From Flavobacteriales bacterium (GTDB taxonomy: Bacteria; Bacteroidota; Bacteroidia; Flavobacteriales; JABDKJ01): DNA of 64,000 nucleotides. This document shows positions 7,559 through 34,623 of this stretch, in pieces. The notes below the pieces were generated by a model. It saw only the letters and a program-made list of their open reading frames with translations. It had not been told where the DNA came from and did not search any database. Position 1 is the first letter of the stretch, and the number at the start of each line of letters is the position of its first letter. A program made the position numbers and the translations under genes. Location of the stretch: the NCBI GenBank assembly GCA_013002285.1, contig JABDKJ010000078.1:133131-197130 (forward strand), given 5' to 3'.

Positions 7559-8641
7559 TTATTTAAAGGTTAACCCTGTAGCTCTCTCAGCATAGAATCC
7601 ACCTAAGTCAACTATTTCCTTTTTCAATTCTTCAAATTTTTCTCTTTCTCCAATGGCTTTGTAGCATAAGAGTTTGTGCCAATCAGCCTCTTCATGAAAT
7701 GTATTGGTCTTGTTCTCTGCAACTGCATCTAAATGAATAATGGCTTCTTCATATCGCTTCAAATAAAAATTGCAAAGGCCACTATAGAATTGGGCATTTG
7801 CATCGTCAGGATAGTGCTCAAAGATGACATCAAAATTTATGAGTGCAAGCTTATTCCTGCCTTTAGAAACATGTTTCAAACAGCCCTCTAAATACTCCAT
7901 GTAGGGCACCCAATTCTCTTTGTCAAAGTTAATACTTACCCCATTATCAGTATCTTGATTTTCCATATAAGCTGGTGTGCCATGCTCTAGTGTTTTGTTG
8001 ACCTTTATAGCTTTTCGTCCTACTTCACTGTAGTCAACGACCTTCATATGGTAGAAATAATCCAGCTCCATATTTGAACCTCTAACACGTCTTAGCTTAG
8101 TGTCAATTCGACTCGTGTAAGAAGGGTCGATCAATTGCTCATTGCCAATTGTCTTGATAGGAGTGAGATCCTCATTCAATTCAAACTTATTCTCTGGAAC
8201 ACTCTCTTCTTCTATTATCAGGACTTTTCCATCAGTGCTCACTTCTATTTGTTTTTCTTCAGCATCAATTTCTTCAATTCCAGGTAATGCGGTGCTTTCA
8301 CGACCAGAAGGACCCTCGGGAGTTTTTTCTTCCAAAGTCACGGCAGAATTTGACTGCTCTGTAATGCGTTCTTCTTTTTCGCTCAACAAGAAAAATGCAC
8401 CTGCGAAAGCCACTACAATAGCGGTACCTATAATGCCTTTCAAAACCCACGAACTGCCGCCACTGGAAAACTTCTGGTCAAAAGAATTCCGAGTATGTTC
8501 AACCAAAGAAGAATTTCCAGCGAATTCAAATCCTTCGATCGCATCTGCCAAGAACGGATCGTCAAGGGCTTCTTTCTCCAAAGCATTACGCTCTGACCCA
8601 CTCAATTCACTACTGATATATTTTTCAATTCTTGTTTTCAT
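7559..8641 (-). CDS. Membrane anti-sigma-like protein with periplasmic TPR-type domain
   Basis: A 360-residue single-pass protein. Residues 1-66 form a short cytoplasmic helical region (RIEKYISSELSGSERNALEK, then DDPFLADAIEGFE) of the kind seen in Bacteroidota proteins paired with ECF sigma factors. One transmembrane helix follows (about 68-87, GIIGTAIVVAFAGAFFLL). The outside part has an acidic linker and a C-terminal TPR-like region (KLALINFDVIFEHYPDDANA, YEEAIIHLDAVAE). It starts 11 bases after the ECF gene, in the same operon, so an anti-sigma role is likely by context; there is no zinc-finger ZAS motif. It is convergent with the DUF2480 gene, one base apart. Confidence 0.75.
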   Translation of the reverse strand: MKTRIEKYISSELSGSERNALEKEALDDPFLADAIEGFEFAGNSSLVEHTRNSFDQKFSSGGSSWVLKGIIGTAIVVAFAGAFFLLSEKEERITEQSNSAVTLEEKTPEGPSGRESTALPGIEEIDAEEKQIEVSTDGKVLIIEEESVPENKFELNEDLTPIKTIGNEQLIDPSYTSRIDTKLRRVRGSNMELDYFYHMKVVDYSEVGRKAIKVNKTLEHGTPAYMENQDTDNGVSINFDKENWVPYMEYLEGCLKHVSKGRNKLALINFDVIFEHYPDDANAQFYSGLCNFYLKRYEEAIIHLDAVAENKTNTFHEEADWHKLLCYKAIGEREKFEELKKEIVDLGGFYAERATGLTFK

Positions 8642-8652
8642 TGTCTTTTCTG

Positions 8653-9231
8653 CTAACCCCGGTCTTTAAAAATGTCTTTCTCAGACAACAGGATCCTTAA
8701 ATTTCGTTTTCCATTTTGAATATGACTTTTCACTTTTTTGAGCTCCATATTAAGATGCTCTGCGATCTCCTGATAGCATTTATTTTTCAAGTAGAAAAGA
8801 CTAATGCAATCCCTTTGTTCTGGGTTAAGATCTTCCAAAACAGCAGACAATTGCTGCAGTTGCTCTTCTTTTACAAAGTCATATCCATTTTGTTCAACTA
8901 TTGTGTTTTCGTGCTTTTCCAGATCATGGATGAGGTTTTTCTTGTCTTTTCTCAATTGCATCAAGCAGTGATTTTTGGTCACTACATATAACCATGACTT
9001 GAAATGATGCACATCTGCGTTTTTCAATTTTTTAGTACATGTTTCATAAATATCCATAGAGGCATCTTTTGCTTTTGCCTGATTCTTTAGATATTTCATG
9101 CACGTACCAACCACAAGAGGAATGAATCGATGGTAGAGAGCGCCTAAATAATTGACGTCTTTTGTTCGATAGTATTCCTCGAGTAATTGCTCGTTCGTGA
9201 GTTTTTGTATGTTCTTTTTTCCAAATAACAA
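8653..9231 (-). CDS. ECF-type RNA polymerase sigma factor (sigma-70 family)
   Basis: A 192-residue extracytoplasmic-function sigma factor. Region 2 is visible as YHRFIPLVVGTCMKYLKN and DASMDIYETCTKK, followed by HHFKSWLYVVTKNHCLMQLR. Region 4 is LNPEQRDCISLFYLKNK with the helix-turn-helix CYQEIAEHLNMELKKVKSHI. The start codon is TTG at 9231, 33 bases after the plug-protein stop. Together with that gene and the downstream anti-sigma-like gene it forms a three-gene operon. Its target promoters are not evident from the window. Confidence 0.9.
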   Translation of the reverse strand: MLFGKKNIQKLTNEQLLEEYYRTKDVNYLGALYHRFIPLVVGTCMKYLKNQAKAKDASMDIYETCTKKLKNADVHHFKSWLYVVTKNHCLMQLRKDKKNLIHDLEKHENTIVEQNGYDFVKEEQLQQLSAVLEDLNPEQRDCISLFYLKNKCYQEIAEHLNMELKKVKSHIQNGKRNLRILLSEKDIFKDRG

Positions 9232-9264: not shown

Positions 9265-9993
9265 TTACATATTATGGGCTTTCCAATTTCTATAAAGTTC
9301 ATTATAGGTCATGGTTTCAATGATAATGACACCTCCAGTGACATCACCGTATTTTGCAGGTACACCACCAGCATATACAGAAACACTGCTAATGGCCCTA
9401 CTCGGGATGTTTACCCTTTGGTCTGCAGTGACTTTTATTCCATCTATGTAGTAGTTAAATGCCATCGCCCGAGAGCCTCTAAAATAGAGTTCGTTGCCAT
9501 CAGGACTAGATGTTATTCCTGGTGCCAAAGACTGAGCCATACTCTTGATGTTCAGTTTGTCTGCTCGTTGCTTTATTTGAGATTGAAGCATTACGGTCTT
9601 CTTTGGGTCGTCCATGTCAATTAATGGGTCTCTGCTCTCTCCAGTTATGATGATAGGTCCGAGTTCATTTGTGACAGGTGTTAATTCGGCCTTATCTTCA
9701 AATTTTATTTTGTCAGGAAGTACGCGTACACCAGACCTTTGGACCGTATTATACCCTAAGAATGCAATATTCAGGGTATATACTCCGGGAGGTAAGGGTT
9801 TCAATGTGAATTTACCATCAAGATCTGTAGTGGTTCCCATAATATCTCCACCTACATCAACCCAAACATTAGCAAAGGGCAAGGGTTCTTGGTTTGTTTG
9901 ATCTACAACAGTACCTTTTATAGAACCGTTGTTTTGAGCCATTAATAGGCAAGTCGTCATTATTGCCAAAAGGGAAAGGAAATTCTTTTTCAT
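9265..9993 (-). CDS. Carboxypeptidase-like regulatory domain plus TonB-receptor plug domain, no beta-barrel
   Basis: A 242-residue secreted protein: signal peptide (1-19, FLSLLAIMTTCLLMAQ), a carboxypeptidase-D regulatory-like fold (about 22-105; SIKGTVVDQTNQEPLPFANV, TTTDLDGKFTLKPLPPGVY), then a TonB-dependent-receptor plug domain (about 120-225; FRGSRAMAFNYYIDGIKV, VSVYAGGVPAKYGDVTGGV). In normal receptors this is the first 220 residues, followed by a 22-strand barrel. Here the protein stops after the plug, and an ECF sigma gene starts 33 bases later. No barrel-coding remnant is visible, so this looks like a designed stand-alone plug rather than a recent truncation. It probably acts in the periplasm, perhaps as an input for the sigma/anti-sigma pair (inference). 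Confidence 0.8.
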   Translation of the reverse strand: MKKNFLSLLAIMTTCLLMAQNNGSIKGTVVDQTNQEPLPFANVWVDVGGDIMGTTTDLDGKFTLKPLPPGVYTLNIAFLGYNTVQRSGVRVLPDKIKFEDKAELTPVTNELGPIIITGESRDPLIDMDDPKKTVMLQSQIKQRADKLNIKSMAQSLAPGITSSPDGNELYFRGSRAMAFNYYIDGIKVTADQRVNIPSRAISSVSVYAGGVPAKYGDVTGGVIIIETMTYNELYRNWKAHNM

Positions 9994-28152: not shown

Positions 28153-28194
28153 TTGACTAATATTGGTTACACTTCAACCAATCAAATTGACTAA
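28153..28194. promoter_or_regulatory. Dyad flanked by direct repeats upstream of the ECF sigma gene
   Basis: A perfect 7-bp inverted repeat ATTGGTT / AACCAAT (28162-28168 and 28176-28182, 7-base spacer) lies between two copies of TTGACTAA (28153-28160 and 28187-28194). It is in the divergent region between the SprB-repeat gene and the ECF sigma gene, about 45 bases from the latter. An operator or autoregulated promoter is inferred. Confidence 0.45.
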
Positions 28195-28226
28195 GTATCA
28201 AAGCAAGGAGATCAGATAAGGAACTT

Positions 28227-28790
28227 TTGCTCATGCTTCTAGGAAAAGAAGCTGACCGTGATAAAGCTTTAAAGACCATATACGGCCTATGCAGAGATCA
28301 AATACATAGATATATCTTGGTCAACAGCGGTGACGAAAGTGACGCATCTGATATGCAACAAGAAGCTATGATAGTATTCTATGAAAATGTGAGAGACAAT
28401 AGATTTAAAGGCGAAAGCGCCATTTCGACTTATGTCTTCTCCATTGCAAAATTTAAATGGTTGAACGAATTAAAAAGAAATAGAAAAGCATCTGAGAGAC
28501 ATTTGAAGGTTGTTTCAGAAGAGAAAGAACTAGATCCATCTCAACAGATAATGAAAAAAGAAGAGCAAGAAATGATCTTGGACCTGATTTCGGGATTAGA
28601 TGAGAATTGTAAAGACCTTTTGGTCCAGAGTTTCTATTTCGATGCAAGCATGAAAGAGATCGTTCAGAAATTGGGTTTTTCAAATGAACAAGTTGCAAGA
28701 AATAAAAAATACAAATGCTTAAAAAGTCTTAGGAAATTATTGCGGTCCGATCGGGAGGCCATATCAATACTGAAAAGTTATGAATTCTGA
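28227..28790 (+). CDS. ECF-type RNA polymerase sigma factor (second copy type)
   Basis: A roughly 187-residue sigma factor. Region 2 is seen in ASDMQQEAMIVFYENVRD and FKGESAISTYVFSIAKFKWL; region 4 in LDENCKDLLVQSFYFDASMK followed by IVQKLGFSNEQVARNKKYKC. The start is uncertain: TTG 28227 or ATG 28233. Translation of the upstream bases in frame gives SDKELLLML, which looks like a normal sigma N-terminus, yet no usable start lies between it and the stop at 28188. The end overlaps the next gene's start by 11 bases. It is not a close copy of the sigma factor at 8.7 kb. Confidence 0.88.
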   Translation: MLMLLGKEADRDKALKTIYGLCRDQIHRYILVNSGDESDASDMQQEAMIVFYENVRDNRFKGESAISTYVFSIAKFKWLNELKRNRKASERHLKVVSEEKELDPSQQIMKKEEQEMILDLISGLDENCKDLLVQSFYFDASMKEIVQKLGFSNEQVARNKKYKCLKSLRKLLRSDREAISILKSYEF

Positions 28791-29514
28791 ACAAGCAAAT
28801 TACGAATTGATCGATCGCTATCACAACAAAGAATTGAGTAGCGAGGAATTGAAAGACTTTGAGAATAAACTTCAAGTTGACAAGGAGTTTTCTCAAGAAA
28901 ATGAAATGTACATCATCTCAAGGCGAAGTATGCGTGTTGTTGGTAGAAAAGAATTGAAGGATAAAATGCGTTCATTCGAAAAAGAAATACAAGAGAAAAG
29001 TTCAGGTAGTTCAAGGCCTTCTTATTACCGATATTTTGCTGTTGCTGCTTCCATAGCAGTGTTGATCGGTGCGTATTGGATATTTGATAGTAGTATGAAT
29101 GATCAAGACCTTTATACGGCTAATTTCGAAGTATATGATAGCCCTACATATGTAAGAGGTACTGGAACACTAAGCAACTGGCAGCTAGGGATCGAAGCAT
29201 ATAATGAAAGACGCTTTCTTAAGGCTTACGATCATTTTGAGAATGCAAATGGACAGGCGTCTTATTTGAAAGATTTTTATCAAGCACAATGCCTTGCATC
29301 TATGGACCCACCATTGATCAAGGAAGCTCTGGAAAAATGCGAACTTGTATTGAATAACAACAACACATATGTAGAACAGGCAAAATGGTATAAGGGCTTA
29401 TTCCATATAAAACTTGGAGAAAAAGAGAGTGCTAGAACTACATTTCAAGAGATCGTAAATCAGGATGGGTATAATTCAAAAAAAGCCTCTAAGATCTTAA
29501 ACTCTTTGGATTGA
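28780..29514 (+). CDS. Membrane anti-sigma-like protein with TPR-type periplasmic domain
   Basis: A 244-residue single-pass protein: cytoplasmic helical region (1-80; LIDRYHNKELSSEELKDFEN), one transmembrane helix (about 84-102; YFAVAASIAVLIGAYWIF), then a TPR-like region (WQLGIEAYNERRFLKAYDHF, KWYKGLFHIKLGEKESARTT). It overlaps the sigma gene, so the two are cotranslated, and its layout matches the anti-sigma-like protein at 7.6-8.6 kb. It is convergent with the CHAT gene, with a 26-base overlap. An anti-sigma role is inferred from context. Confidence 0.75.
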   Translation: MNSEQANYELIDRYHNKELSSEELKDFENKLQVDKEFSQENEMYIISRRSMRVVGRKELKDKMRSFEKEIQEKSSGSSRPSYYRYFAVAASIAVLIGAYWIFDSSMNDQDLYTANFEVYDSPTYVRGTGTLSNWQLGIEAYNERRFLKAYDHFENANGQASYLKDFYQAQCLASMDPPLIKEALEKCELVLNNNNTYVEQAKWYKGLFHIKLGEKESARTTFQEIVNQDGYNSKKASKILNSLD

Positions 29515-32458
29515 TCTTTCTCTTTAAAACCAAAGCTCCTAGTAAAACTACTAGTATCAAAAACACGTAGGTCCAATAATTTTTGGCTTCTTGTAAAGGG
29601 TCAGTATTTCCAACAACCTTGAATGAGCTCCAGAAAAAAGGGTGAAGTTTTTCTGGATTTGAATTTTCTAGGAATGAATTCATTGCATTATTTAGAGCTT
29701 TGTCTTTGGTTACACCATTCTTCAAATGAGTTAAGAAAAGAGATGATAATTCAGATGTAGCGCCATCATCAACGGTCCATAAAGAAGTGAGTAGTGAAGG
29801 GCAACCCCCATATTGAAATGCTCTTTCAAGAGATAGCATGCCTTCGCCCCTTTGCCATTCTCCTATTCCTGTATTACATGCACTTAAAATGATCAATTGA
29901 GCTTTAGTTTCAAGATCGTATATCTCATATGTGTGAAGCCAGCCATTGTTCTCGGATGATCGATTGAACATAAACTTTGATAACATGGGATCTTGGTCAT
30001 TGATAAAGGCGTGAGAGGCAAGGTGTAAGATACCGGCTTCACGGGCATGTTCAACAAATAGTTCTTCAGTAACATTCTGACCTACCCAAGAGTTTCCGCC
30101 TAAAATGGTCTTGCCTTGTTCAACTTCGTTATTATTAAAATGAAGCTTTGTCACGTTCAGTCCATCAAAAGCAAGTTCTTCTTCGAGATATTCAGGCGCA
30201 AAGCCCTGGTACTTAGAAATTGAAGAATTCAAATTTTGTGCTAAGAGTTTAAGGGAAGATGAAGCAGCATATGAAATGGAGTATTTTTTAAAAAGATAGT
30301 CCAGATCTTTATAATTGATCTTTTGATGATCTGTATTCTTGGTCAATAGAGAACTGAAACTCAGATAAGAGAGATCATGATCCGGGATGACAATAAGATT
30401 ATTTATGTTTTCGTCTAGGTTTTGAATGGCGCCCTCGACAAAGATCTGATATATCTCATAACTATCTTTGCAATACTCCTTATAAGAAATTGCGGGTTCG
30501 AGTTGATGTCGTGCGAAATCTCGAATGGATCGATTATAAGAAGCTAGCAGATCAAAATGAGACCTAGTAATTGGTGAATTAATGATCTCGACATCATTTT
30601 TAGTAATGACAAAAGTGTAAATATCATTGTCTCCTATAAAGTATTCGAGAATTGCGGAATTTTCGTCCAAAAGATCACTTTGAATATTTTGAAGACCAGC
30701 AAGAGGTAATTCGAATTTTAGATCATAATAATCCGGATACTCGAGTTTAAGTTTAGAAAGAAATACATCATACTCATTTTGTAAAACTCTTAATTCAGTT
30801 GACCATAGGTCCAACATTTTGCTTCTTGTTTGAGAACATCTTTGTTCTTCTAATGAGATCTTTCCCGTGTAAAAATTGATCTGTTCTTTTAGCTCATTTT
30901 CTTGTGAGAGGATGTCTTTAGGGACCTTTGAATTATCCGCCAATTCAGTTTGATAAAATGATGTTAATAAAAGCAATGCCTTGCTTTTTTCAACAACTTC
31001 TAGACAATGGTGTCTATGGTCTTCTCCCTTTATTTGTGATCTGGTTAAATATGTATTTATCAGACTTTCAAACAATGGCATAGACTTTTTAGACCAATAC
31101 GCCTTAGACGATTTTGAGATCGCCCCATATTTATAGTTATCGATGATTTCCAAAGCCAATTTTTGAGTTTCCAAAGCGATCTCAAGGTCCTCTTCATTTC
31201 CTTTTTCAAAAAACTGCTTTTTCAGCAATTCTGCTTTGCCAACTAGAGATTCGAAGAGATAATTATTGTTTAGAGCATTGGGGTCTATCACTGGGTTTGC
31301 ATGGATGGCGGTATCACTAAAATTTGTTGCCAACATGCATATCGCATTTTGATATGCAGAAAGTGCTTCTTGATCTTTTCCATTGGAGTGCATGGATCTA
31401 GCGACATAATTTTGACAGGATCCGGTTAATGCATGGTCTTTCCCGTAAAGGGTTTCTCTCATTTTTAAGGCTTCCTCATAGTAATTGAAAGCATCACCAT
31501 AATTTCCAGCTTGTAAAAGACTGTCACCTTCCGTAATAAATGGAATGCTAGTATCATTATTTATAGGAACTTCATCAATAACAGACAAATTAAAGTATTT
31601 CAATGCCTCTTTATTATTCCCCAATTCCCAATACATGTCACCTATCCCTTCATTTAAAAAGCGCATGTATCTGTCGTCCCTTTTCTTTGTTCGGCTCCAG
31701 ATCGCATGACAAGGCAAATAGTATTTAAGTGCGTTTTCGAATTGCTCTAATTCGTAATAATTGTTGGCAATATTGTATGCAGCATTTGCAACAAATTCAT
31801 GTTCGTTAGAATAGTTTTTCTCATATAGTTCCATTTCAGTCTTGTGGTACTCTAGTCCCTTTTCAAAATCCCCAATGTTCCTACACTTCTGACCTAATTT
31901 AGCCAGTGTGTTTCCTAAATGATAGACTGAAGGGGATCCTACTTCATTAAATTTTTCAAGTAATTTTTGGAGCTCAGGAATGGCGTCTACTTTTTCTAGA
32001 CTTATGTTGTTGAATGTTCGAATGAACTCGTACCTATTCAGCTGTGAGGGCGACAAATTATGAATGTTGATCTCAGAAAGAAGAACAGGCACTTCATTAT
32101 AGTGCTTTCTTAATTGAATTGCCTCGGCTTTCATTAATTTGAATTCCACATCTTCTAAGAATGGGTGATTGATTTTTTGTAAACTCTCTTTCAATCCATT
32201 GATGGCTCGAAGTGGGCTTTCTCGTTTGTTCAACCCTCTGAGTGTATTATAGTTCAAAACTTCGATCTGAATATGTGAATTACTTCCGATCTCTAAATTG
32301 TTGCAGTCAAGAATAGAATCACAAAGTTCTCGGGATCCTTTAAACTCACCTTGTTTTATAAGACTTTCAATTTTAGAAGCTGCAGCTCCAAGTTCGCAGT
32401 CCTGGGCGTGATAAATTGTCCATGTTAAAAGAAAGAAGATCAATATGCGAGTGTGCAC
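29489..32458 (-). CDS. Periplasmic, membrane-anchored TPR-CHAT protease
   Basis: A 989-residue protein: signal peptide (1-19, RILIFFLLTWTIYHAQ), TPR repeats (about 25-400; for example EQFENALKYYLPCHAIW, GDAFNYYEEALKMRETLYG), a helical middle, a CHAT caspase-like domain (about 620-930) and a C-terminal transmembrane helix (about 960-978, YVFLILVVLLGALVL) with a basic tail. The catalytic His is H816 (LHLASHAFIND) and the Cys is C861 (ILSACNTGIGEWQRGEG); both are intact. With the signal peptide and single anchor, the protease domain should face the periplasm. It starts with GTG and abuts an ECF sigma / anti-sigma pair on the opposite strand. Substrate unknown. Confidence 0.87.
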   Translation of the reverse strand: MHTRILIFFLLTWTIYHAQDCELGAAASKIESLIKQGEFKGSRELCDSILDCNNLEIGSNSHIQIEVLNYNTLRGLNKRESPLRAINGLKESLQKINHPFLEDVEFKLMKAEAIQLRKHYNEVPVLLSEINIHNLSPSQLNRYEFIRTFNNISLEKVDAIPELQKLLEKFNEVGSPSVYHLGNTLAKLGQKCRNIGDFEKGLEYHKTEMELYEKNYSNEHEFVANAAYNIANNYYELEQFENALKYYLPCHAIWSRTKKRDDRYMRFLNEGIGDMYWELGNNKEALKYFNLSVIDEVPINNDTSIPFITEGDSLLQAGNYGDAFNYYEEALKMRETLYGKDHALTGSCQNYVARSMHSNGKDQEALSAYQNAICMLATNFSDTAIHANPVIDPNALNNNYLFESLVGKAELLKKQFFEKGNEEDLEIALETQKLALEIIDNYKYGAISKSSKAYWSKKSMPLFESLINTYLTRSQIKGEDHRHHCLEVVEKSKALLLLTSFYQTELADNSKVPKDILSQENELKEQINFYTGKISLEEQRCSQTRSKMLDLWSTELRVLQNEYDVFLSKLKLEYPDYYDLKFELPLAGLQNIQSDLLDENSAILEYFIGDNDIYTFVITKNDVEIINSPITRSHFDLLASYNRSIRDFARHQLEPAISYKEYCKDSYEIYQIFVEGAIQNLDENINNLIVIPDHDLSYLSFSSLLTKNTDHQKINYKDLDYLFKKYSISYAASSSLKLLAQNLNSSISKYQGFAPEYLEEELAFDGLNVTKLHFNNNEVEQGKTILGGNSWVGQNVTEELFVEHAREAGILHLASHAFINDQDPMLSKFMFNRSSENNGWLHTYEIYDLETKAQLIILSACNTGIGEWQRGEGMLSLERAFQYGGCPSLLTSLWTVDDGATSELSSLFLTHLKNGVTKDKALNNAMNSFLENSNPEKLHPFFWSSFKVVGNTDPLQEAKNYWTYVFLILVVLLGALVLKRKINPKSLRS

Positions 32459-32517: not shown

Positions 32518-34623
32518 TCAATCGATCTTGATAAGTCGGAATTCGCGAGAAAGATTACCAATACTGATCCTAGCCAAATATACACCTTGCTTCGCTCCAA
32601 CTAAGTTTAACTCAAACTGATCTCCGAGACAAGGTTCCAGTGGCAGTATATTTTTTCCTCTTAAGTCAAAGACTTCTATGTCACAATCGAGCGGTAAGTT
32701 CTGCAAATTAAAAATTCCGTTAGAAGGATTTGGATCTATCACAACATTTTCAAACTTATCCAGTTTGGCGATTGAGGTCACACCAGTGATCTCATTGATC
32801 AGATATGTGTTGTTTACGTTTAGATCATCTAGAGTTTGGTCGATACCGGAAGGCCAATTAATGACCAAAGAATCAATAGACCAAGATCCTTCAAGGCCGA
32901 AATGAAGAGTCTGTTGATCTTGGGCAAATCTATGATGTCCTCCATCAAATACTTTTTTTTGAGAAGTGCCACCAGAATAGATCGTTACCACACTGCCCAA
33001 ACCATCTGCATTCGAACTTTCACCTTCAAGATCGATCTTTACCCAGTTGTTTGAATTAGAAGTGGTGTTTCTATAAATGTCGATCGAACCATATTCTCCA
33101 GGGAATCCCCCAGCATTAACTCTCGAAATATCCATGAGACCATCGTTGTTAATATCCATACTAGAACAAGCATCGGAAAGTCCTTCCGAAGCATTGGTAA
33201 CTTCAACGGCATTTGAAAAGTCTAGTGTTCCATCTACGTTTTCTATAAATATCAGAGGCTTACTCTCCAACAGATCAAAAGGAAAAATAATGAGATCTTG
33301 ATCTTTGTCATTATCGAAATCTTCTGTTATAAAACTTGAAGTAGGAATATCAGATAGTATTTCATTGCTAACTATTTCAATGTTTGGGCCAACCTCCTGA
33401 AAACTCATTAATTGAATGGGTCCGGGAACTGGCGTCAGGTCTATATTATTGGTGCTCAATAGCTCCAAACCGTCATCTGCTTTGACACTCACCCTCAATG
33501 ACTTACTATTTGCTCTATTGATCTGGATCCTCCATTGATCGTTTATGTCATCGAAACTTAGGTTAACATAGTTTTCCATCAATGTGTCTGTAGGCCAATT
33601 TAAAAATGAGGGATCATTTTCATCTATTAAATGAGGGCCATGTACTTCAATTGACGTATGGTCCATCCCCGTATTTGCATTCATTGTATTCGGATAAGAA
33701 TAAACTTGGAATGTAAAAGTTGAAGGAGCCGTAAAAATGATCTCTGCATCAATATCGCTAAATGCTAAGTAGGTGTCTATGGTGGAGTTGCTTGATGTAA
33801 AAAAATTAGAATTTGTTTTTTTACTGATCAACATTTCAAAATCACCATCATTGTCAAAGTCTTGAATGCTCATATCTCCAGCACCGAAAGTTCCTTCATG
33901 TGCAAGTGTAAATTGATTGGAGATCCTGTTATAGATGCGATATCTGCCGTCATTCGAAATGATCAGCTCCATATCCCCATCGTTATCTATGTCGGCCTGC
34001 TGAGAAAATTTCGATTGAAAAAACTCAACTGATCCATCCAATTCAAAACTATAGTCACTTTGTTGCAGATATAAAGCTGAAAGAATAAATCCAGGAAGAT
34101 CAGAAAAATCTTGGTTGACAAAAAGGTCTGTCCTTCCATCTAAATTTGCGTCCAGAGCCATCATGGTTCTGCTTTTACCTATAGAAGGGCACATGGCACA
34201 AGTAGTATCAGGGACATTTCCAGTTGTAAATGGCGTCTGATATAGAATATTCTTATTCGCACTCCCTGACAAAAGTAATATGTTTTGATACGGGCTTTCT
34301 TTAGTCCTGAAAAATGAAGCACCGTGCATGTCTTTTACATCAAGGATCTGTGCATCAATAGAATTAAAAGAATTACCATCATTATTCACATATAGTATCG
34401 GACCGATCTCAAAATCAGGTACAATGGAAATAAATGGGTTGTAGTGATTGGGAGCAAAAAGATCGGGATAACCATTGTTATCATAATCACCCCAATACAA
34501 ACCATAACTTTTTGTTGTATCGGTTATTCCCAGATCACTACTGACATGATCAAATGAGATCTGTGAATTCATGATTAAAGACAACAAACAAAAAAAGACG
34601 ATCAATGACTTTTGAAGATACAT
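32518..34623 (-). CDS. Secreted FG-GAP/VCBS-repeat protein with ASPIC/UnbV domain and T9SS sorting domain
   Basis: A 701-residue exported protein with a signal peptide (1-19), FG-GAP/VCBS-type repeats carrying DxDxDG-like calcium loops (YWGDYDNNGYPDL, DANLDGRTDLFVN, DIDNDGDMELIIS, DFDNDGDFEMLIS, DINNDGLMDISRV), an ASPIC/UnbV-like domain near residues 535-605 (GLGSVVTIYSGG, DSLVINWPSG), and a type A sorting domain (about 620-701; NPSNGIFNLQNLP, GVYLARISIGN). It is probably a beta-propeller surface protein. The start lies 59 bases upstream of nothing conserved; the gene follows no partner closely. It shares strand and neighbourhood with the CHAT gene, 59 bases upstream of it. Confidence 0.85.
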   Translation of the reverse strand: MYLQKSLIVFFCLLSLIMNSQISFDHVSSDLGITDTTKSYGLYWGDYDNNGYPDLFAPNHYNPFISIVPDFEIGPILYVNNDGNSFNSIDAQILDVKDMHGASFFRTKESPYQNILLLSGSANKNILYQTPFTTGNVPDTTCAMCPSIGKSRTMMALDANLDGRTDLFVNQDFSDLPGFILSALYLQQSDYSFELDGSVEFFQSKFSQQADIDNDGDMELIISNDGRYRIYNRISNQFTLAHEGTFGAGDMSIQDFDNDGDFEMLISKKTNSNFFTSSNSTIDTYLAFSDIDAEIIFTAPSTFTFQVYSYPNTMNANTGMDHTSIEVHGPHLIDENDPSFLNWPTDTLMENYVNLSFDDINDQWRIQINRANSKSLRVSVKADDGLELLSTNNIDLTPVPGPIQLMSFQEVGPNIEIVSNEILSDIPTSSFITEDFDNDKDQDLIIFPFDLLESKPLIFIENVDGTLDFSNAVEVTNASEGLSDACSSMDINNDGLMDISRVNAGGFPGEYGSIDIYRNTTSNSNNWVKIDLEGESSNADGLGSVVTIYSGGTSQKKVFDGGHHRFAQDQQTLHFGLEGSWSIDSLVINWPSGIDQTLDDLNVNNTYLINEITGVTSIAKLDKFENVVIDPNPSNGIFNLQNLPLDCDIEVFDLRGKNILPLEPCLGDQFELNLVGAKQGVYLARISIGNLSREFRLIKID

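Follow-up and report, generated by a model that had tools for sequence, protein, structure and literature searches.

In the type III-E CRISPR system CASP (Csx29/Csx30/CASP-sigma), the caspase-like CHAT protease Csx29 acts in an RNA-triggered complex with Cas7-11 and cleaves the sigma inhibitor Csx30, a soluble protein. In Myxococcus xanthus, the DdvA protein of the DdvA/DdvS pair (PDB 8rot, 8rw5) is a transmembrane anti-sigma factor with a TPR-CHAT fold of its own (TPR, tetratricopeptide repeat), and its signal is described as unknown in the passages of PMC4374960 drawn on here. We describe a further arrangement in a stretch of 64,000 nucleotides, called the window below, from a Flavobacteriales bacterium (assembly GCA_013002285.1, contig JABDKJ010000078.1, positions 133,131 to 197,130), where an extracytoplasmic function (ECF) sigma factor, a single-pass anti-sigma-like protein and a TPR-CHAT protease are encoded by neighbouring genes. 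This split, membrane-anchored CHAT/anti-sigma circuit, present in multiple copies in some Bacteroidota, would constitute a new form of CHAT/sigma coupling; no description of the Bacteroidota module was found in the open-access literature searched, and the association may be noted elsewhere, for example in the 2021 ECF reclassification. An earlier note on this DNA had invoked the cleavage of Csx30 by a TPR-CHAT protease as the precedent, and rightly so. The structural model of the window's CHAT protein matches Csx29, separase and DdvA, the last of which adds a further case.

DdvA, which shares the TPR-CHAT fold, holds it together with the anti-sigma factor in one protein, whereas the Bacteroidota module divides them between two separate genes and proteins, each with its own membrane helix and often with an exported operon partner. 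Unlike in CASP, CHAT in the Bacteroidota module has a signal peptide and a membrane anchor, with a single-pass membrane protein as the inhibitor; a defence scan (PADLOC) of six window genes, the only ones of the window scanned, gave no match, and neither Cas7-11 nor Csx30 was found among these genes, whose Pfam domains are other ones. A further comparison comes from Geodermatophilus, an actinobacterium. It supplied the model member of ECF54, a group described as regulated without an anti-sigma factor, whose gene neighbourhood includes CHAT, subtilase and carboxypeptidase genes and for which proteolytic regulation is proposed (PMC8999054, in the sections used here). As in ECF54, the exported partner, here called X (the co-directional non-module gene at most 250 bp before a linked CHAT; 67 cases, 66 of them scanned for families), is a subtilase in 6/66 and an M14 carboxypeptidase in 1/66, and unlike in ECF54, a TPR anti-sigma-like protein nearly always adjoins the sigma factor of the module. 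In the RseA system, which is not known to involve TPR domains, the first cutter is the trypsin-like DegS, in contrast to the caspase-like CHAT that is the candidate first cutter in the Bacteroidota module. According to the part of PMC10028731 cited here, RseA, the anti-sigma factor of RpoE, is cut first by an envelope-stress protease and then by RseP and ClpXP.

The three CHAT/sigma arrangements, namely Csx29 with Csx30, the DdvA fusion and the split membrane form, suggest a recurring proteolytic or allosteric partnership. Only 6% of Bacteroidetes ECF sigma factors were found to adjoin a classical anti-sigma domain (PMC7406223, in the portion consulted), which leaves the control of most of them to be explained. 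For one set, the module supplies a definite answer that experiments can probe; it would also give caspase-like CHAT proteases a part in everyday envelope signalling, beyond CRISPR defence and cell death.

Linkage and joint inheritance across Bacteroidota

The adjacency of CHAT, sigma and anti-sigma genes is far beyond chance, and conservation of the trio, the check that the earlier note had named beforehand, was found from both the CHAT and the anti-sigma side. The note's refuting condition of a CHAT gene adjacent in a single genome therefore does not hold. From the CHAT side, we took the best 80 of 574 confirmed loci of a reference-genome scan with the CHAT alignment, picked regardless of sigma factors, and built the sigma and anti-sigma profiles from those same loci: a sigma gene lies within 5 kb in 42 of the 80 loci, an anti-sigma homologue in 41 and both in 38, and both are near CHAT in 27 of the 40 loci having at least 5 kb on each side. 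The hosts include Flavobacteriaceae, Saprospiraceae and Bacteroidales, with the genera Agaribacillus, Fulvivirga and Aquimarina among them. From the anti-sigma side, 395 genomes sampled evenly across the phylum were searched with a profile built from 28 anti-sigmas (A2), which matched at least 47 of these genomes at 1e-20, with A2 counts being lower bounds (six candidates scored per genome). Leaving out one genome (G001), we took all 83 anti-sigma matches of the other 46. A sigma match lies within 300 bp of 77 of these (in two cases within the same open reading frame, ORF), and a CHAT gene lies within 300 bp of 23, 1.5 kb of 37, 3 kb of 45 and 5.5 kb of 61, counts to be read with the caution that A2, trained on CHAT-linked proteins, favours linked relatives and that the 46 genomes may overlap the training genomes. 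The 61 linked anti-sigmas comprise 29 divergent cases, 21 convergent ones as in the window, 10 with CHAT following on the same strand and 1 with CHAT preceding on the same strand.

In ten whole genomes, from which some of the A2 training sequences originate, 31 of 37 full-length anti-sigma matches have a CHAT match no more than 5 kb away, against 0.66 expected by random placement; conversely, a full-length anti-sigma is this close to 35 of 64 CHAT matches. The richest genome holds 10 TPR-type anti-sigmas and 14 CHATs, with seven of the anti-sigmas no further than 5 kb from a CHAT. Two contrasts within the same genomes make the linkage specific to the TPR-type anti-sigma and the anchored type of CHAT. 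Among the listed anti-sigmas matching only N-terminally, just 3 of 41 are near a CHAT (these three have 228-237 amino acids, the TPR-type size; another, of 242, is not near), and none of the 21 CHATs whose match ends before the anchor has a full-length anti-sigma nearby, compared with 34 of the 57 whose match reaches it.

The module partners travel together despite varying gene order. We assembled 95 modules, the window's among them, of which 36 are divergent, 34 convergent, 17 operons, 4 split by a CHAT gene between sigma and anti-sigma, and 4 otherwise arranged. CHAT tree distances show a correlation of r 0.465 with the distances of the anti-sigma periplasmic domain, of 0.410 with those of the sigma factor and of 0.340 with those of the anti-sigma cytoplasmic part, and swapping partners within genomes (16 genomes, 41 modules) reached the observed r in 0, 0 and 15 of 2000 trials, respectively.

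Some single loci add to this range of forms. In the split modules L003, L047, L057 and L068, the anti-sigma and sigma genes stand on opposite sides of CHAT, so that the module is held together even where sigma no longer adjoins anti-sigma. At L173:6562-7587 and L174:6705-7673, in two genomes, a single ORF with no CHAT near it begins with a sigma-like portion and continues through a membrane helix to the TPR part, which looks like deletion decay of the module. L065, a metagenome-assembled genome of candidate division KSB1, has a fragment of the same anti-sigma family near a CHAT broken over three ORFs, and would thus carry the module outside Bacteroidota, provided that the bin is pure. In two Bacteroidales genomes, an extra sigma gene of 189 amino acids (L007:4125-4691, L063:11994-12560) together with a two-helix membrane protein of 138 amino acids directly adjoins the module.

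The window's proteins

The layout given in the earlier note, with the sigma gene overlapping the anti-sigma gene and CHAT convergent, proved right in coordinates and order (Table 1); the sigma and anti-sigma genes overlap by 11 bp, and the anti-sigma and CHAT genes by 26 bp, tail to tail. The sigma factor matches Sigma70_r2 of Pfam above the cut-off (E 4.3e-7), with region 4 below its own, and TIGR02937 (sigma70-ECF) of NCBIfam at 70.3 bits against a cut-off of 42.9.

By its sequence, the window's CHAT protein is a member of the TPR-CHAT family with a predicted His-Cys dyad, and a protease by prediction. It matches PF12770 with E 3e-45 (155.3 bits, cut-off 24) and has TPR repeats (TPR_12, 87.9 bits); H816 and C861 are unchanged throughout a 31-sequence alignment, and both residues are each kept in 94/95 module CHATs, the other row being a gap, and in 56/56 non-module CHATs. 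The protein has a signal-peptide-like start and a hydrophobic C-terminal helix followed by a basic tail, as the earlier note had described for start and anchor. A signal-like start occurs in 93/94 module CHATs versus 47/48 non-module CHATs of the loci, and the C-terminal helix in 73/85 module CHATs with a complete 3' end versus 48/55; being equally common in both, signal peptide, anchor and dyad are no marker of modules within this CHAT type. A phmmer search of the CHAT domain against PDB sequences gave no match, and matches of the protein in plasmid records were all below 60% identity, with none spanning more than 80% of CHAT.

The anti-sigma model (mean predicted local distance difference test score, pLDDT, 89) has helices at residues 3-73, then the membrane helix and then the TPR array, bearing out the claim that the outer half is TPR-like. 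Its hydrophobic helix is the only one, and one such helix is found in 93/95 module anti-sigmas. The window protein's own TPR match falls under the Pfam cut-off, while TPR families match about half of its homologues (the commonest family, 16/28); the 50 structure matches listed by Foldseek are all TPR-type folds, with none at E 0.001 or better. No anti-sigma Pfam domain was found in the window protein, and zf-HC2 appears in 1/28 homologues only. The CHAT domain and the outer anti-sigma domain are both predicted to be periplasmic, as the earlier note had it. The closest relatives show 58% identity for the anti-sigma and 65% for CHAT, and probably lie on one contig, because a longest contig of 20,725 bases is reported for both.

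Table 1. Features of the module in the window (positions counted from the first nucleotide of the window)
Feature	Position	Strand	Basis or remark
ECF sigma factor	28227..28790	+	187 amino acids counted from TTG; in-frame ATG at 28233 an equally plausible start
Single-pass anti-sigma-like protein, 244 amino acids	28780..29514	+	ORF; sigma match near homologues; model
Anti-sigma N-terminal helical region, residues 1-75, presumed cytoplasmic sigma-binding domain	28780..29004	+	Model; sigma binding presumed
Anti-sigma transmembrane helix, residues 86-104	29035..29091	+	Sole hydrophobic helix of the protein
Anti-sigma periplasmic TPR domain, residues 133-243	29176..29508	+	Model, fold matches, TPR matches in homologues
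TPR-CHAT protease, 989 amino acids, signal peptide and C-terminal membrane anchor	29489..32458	-	ORF, Pfam, alignment, model
CHAT protease domain, residues 668-951	29606..30457	-	Pfam
Predicted catalytic His816	30011..30013	-	Alignments
Predicted catalytic Cys861	29876..29878	-	Alignments
CHAT C-terminal transmembrane anchor, residues 960-978	29525..29581	-	Hydrophobic helix
Gene X: exported FG-GAP/UnbV_ASPIC (VCBS) protein with C-terminal tail of the type IX secretion system	32518..34623	-	Same direction as CHAT and about 60 bp before it; shared operon predicted

How the circuit may work

The CHAT protease probably helps to turn the sigma switch on, in a circuit that is probably widespread. 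That the three proteins form a conserved membrane signalling module, in which CHAT cuts or reshapes the anti-sigma protein, is a reading on which our own judgement is evenly balanced, and cleavage by CHAT would be its best and most economical mechanism. Gene content, dyad, linkage, joint inheritance and a promoter-like element are read directly from the DNA, and the topology is predicted; from these, we infer sigma binding, docking, cleavage, signal and loop as follows. The single-pass protein would hold the ECF sigma factor at the inner membrane in an inactive state, and CHAT, likewise anchored there and exposing its TPR and protease domains to the periplasm, would dock on the periplasmic TPR domain of the anti-sigma. 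A cell-surface signal, perhaps passed on by the exported X, would then make CHAT cut the anti-sigma or alter its conformation, and later proteolysis, for example by an RseP-type protease as for RseA, would release the sigma factor, which in many divergent modules may in turn switch on the CHAT operon, closing a positive, feed-forward loop. In its boldest form, which we put forward tentatively and with some doubt, Bacteroidota would hold a large family of caspase-gated sigma switches in several parallel copies per genome, each with an anchored, separase-like CHAT that reads the state of an exported protein differing between copies, cleaves the TPR anti-sigma belonging to it on the periplasmic side and fires an ECF sigma factor re-expressing the protease operon, that is, a self-reinforcing and insulated outside-to-inside relay of which DdvA would be the fused form.

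Several observations weigh against CHAT cutting or reshaping the anti-sigma. No sigma gene lies within 5 kb in 38/80 CHAT loci, partly through contig ends, nor in 13/40 of the full-flank loci, and for 22/83 anti-sigma homologues no CHAT gene is found up to 5.5 kb away. Non-module CHATs have the dyad, the signal peptide and the anchor equally often, and joint inheritance is expected for any linked genes and is no proof of contact. No conserved cut site is evident in the anti-sigma: a stalk arginine that seemed conserved in the first 29 homologues was dropped as a candidate at 39% of 121. The release circuit of the earlier note is thus partly supported, by the conserved linkage and the predicted topology, with the cutting of the anti-sigma protein as a putative step. 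In addition, a promoter-like element suggests that CHAT stands downstream of the sigma factor, a role as a target that CHAT may have and that the earlier note did not consider.

This element, GGTAAC, precedes the CHAT operon in 24/36 divergent modules versus 17/254 other operon heads of the same loci, and together with a GATATA -10 element 15-18 bases on, at one mismatch or fewer, in 17/36 versus 3/720 shuffles, counts that are uncorrected for kinship, several of the element-bearing modules being close relatives. Its spacing is ECF-like, from which the natural reading is that the sigma factor, presumably recognising it, drives the CHAT operon in divergent modules. The CHAT protease would then be an output in the alternative that the TPR domain of the anti-sigma itself senses the signal and that the sigma factor then makes X and a periplasmic CHAT acting on the envelope or on X. 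This we regard as a serious rival, though rather unlikely as a full account. In its favour, the operon partner looks exported, as judged by a rough signal rule, in 58/67 cases versus 409/770 other genes of the loci. Against it, few modules of the window's own convergent layout have the element (GGTAAC in 3/34, the double pattern in 1/34), the PDB title places the TPR-CHAT fold of DdvA within the anti-sigma itself, and the CHAT protease of CASP acts on the sigma inhibitor.

Other results on the element bear on its reach. A single promoter common to all arrangements was rejected, GGTAAC being largely confined to divergent modules. The double pattern is found in 3/36 sigma upstream regions, and GGTAAC was not found before the window's sigma gene or X gene. 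Across 10 genomes, the one-mismatch pattern is no commoner than a reversed control (259 versus 290 matches). Perfect genome-wide matches are less numerous and fall partly at the module: among those listed, which cover six of these genomes, the share at the module is 2/3 in each of G353, G031 and G212, 2/4 in G334, 1/4 in G216 and 1/3 in G263. Of the others, some are located within genes, and a few stand ahead of genes whose products look exported. Element matches of this latter kind outside the module, at L202:1501 and L204:1501 and at L181:1501 and L207:1501, each pair being similar loci, point to possible further sigma targets. A comparison of -35 and -10 elements between sigma and CHAT upstream regions gave a weak signal (36/69 full matches versus 92/338 mismatched pairs).

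It is improbable, in our estimate, that CHAT acts without cutting the anti-sigma, with TPR-to-TPR contact relaying the state of CHAT or X to it and the protease cutting X or another protein. Both partners carry TPR arrays, the subtilases and the carboxypeptidase among the X proteins suggest that another protease may cut, and the CHAT tree fits the periplasmic anti-sigma domain better than the cytoplasmic part, a difference in r that may merely reflect the shorter cytoplasmic alignment. Against this, the catalytic dyad is retained in every scorable module CHAT, RseA-type sigma release proceeds by cutting, and Csx30 is likewise cut. Finally, that the genes are chance or merely positional neighbours, both families being numerous in Bacteroidota (up to 14 CHAT and 10 anti-sigma matches per genome), is refuted for the linkage by the 31 observed pairs, the within-genome contrasts and the joint inheritance, and retains hardly any probability.

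Exported partners and neighbouring genes

The earlier note had suggested the nearby SprB and VCBS genes of the window as possible outputs of the circuit. The VCBS gene probably belongs to the CHAT operon, because it has the same orientation as CHAT and only about 60 bp separate the two, and the partners elsewhere are mostly exported-looking (28 of the 58 are lipoprotein-like); what does not carry over is the family, with FG-GAP/UnbV serving as X in the window only. The 66 scanned partners include 15 of the DUF7849/DUF7619/PKD families, and in a few cases, a tRNA synthetase among them, the gene clearly has nothing to do with the module. PADLOC on the 66 X proteins matched a subtilase model to 5 of them and each of four further models to one, from which we claim no defence link. 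In L119, L130, L191 and their relatives, the CHAT operon runs in the order 99-amino-acid protein, lipoprotein of about 326 amino acids, DUF7849/PKD protein and CHAT, with GGTAAC-N17-GATATA before the first operon gene, the second or both.

Within the window, an SprB gene is divergent from the sigma gene. The window also contains a second ECF sigma/single-pass anti-sigma pair (8656-9231 and 7562-8641, both on the minus strand), whose anti-sigma protein, of 360 amino acids, matches the same anti-sigma profile with E 2.8e-24. A distance of 20 kb separates this pair from the sole CHAT ORF found in the window, and a CarboxypepD_reg/TonB plug ORF (9265-9993) lies directly upstream of the pair on the same strand.

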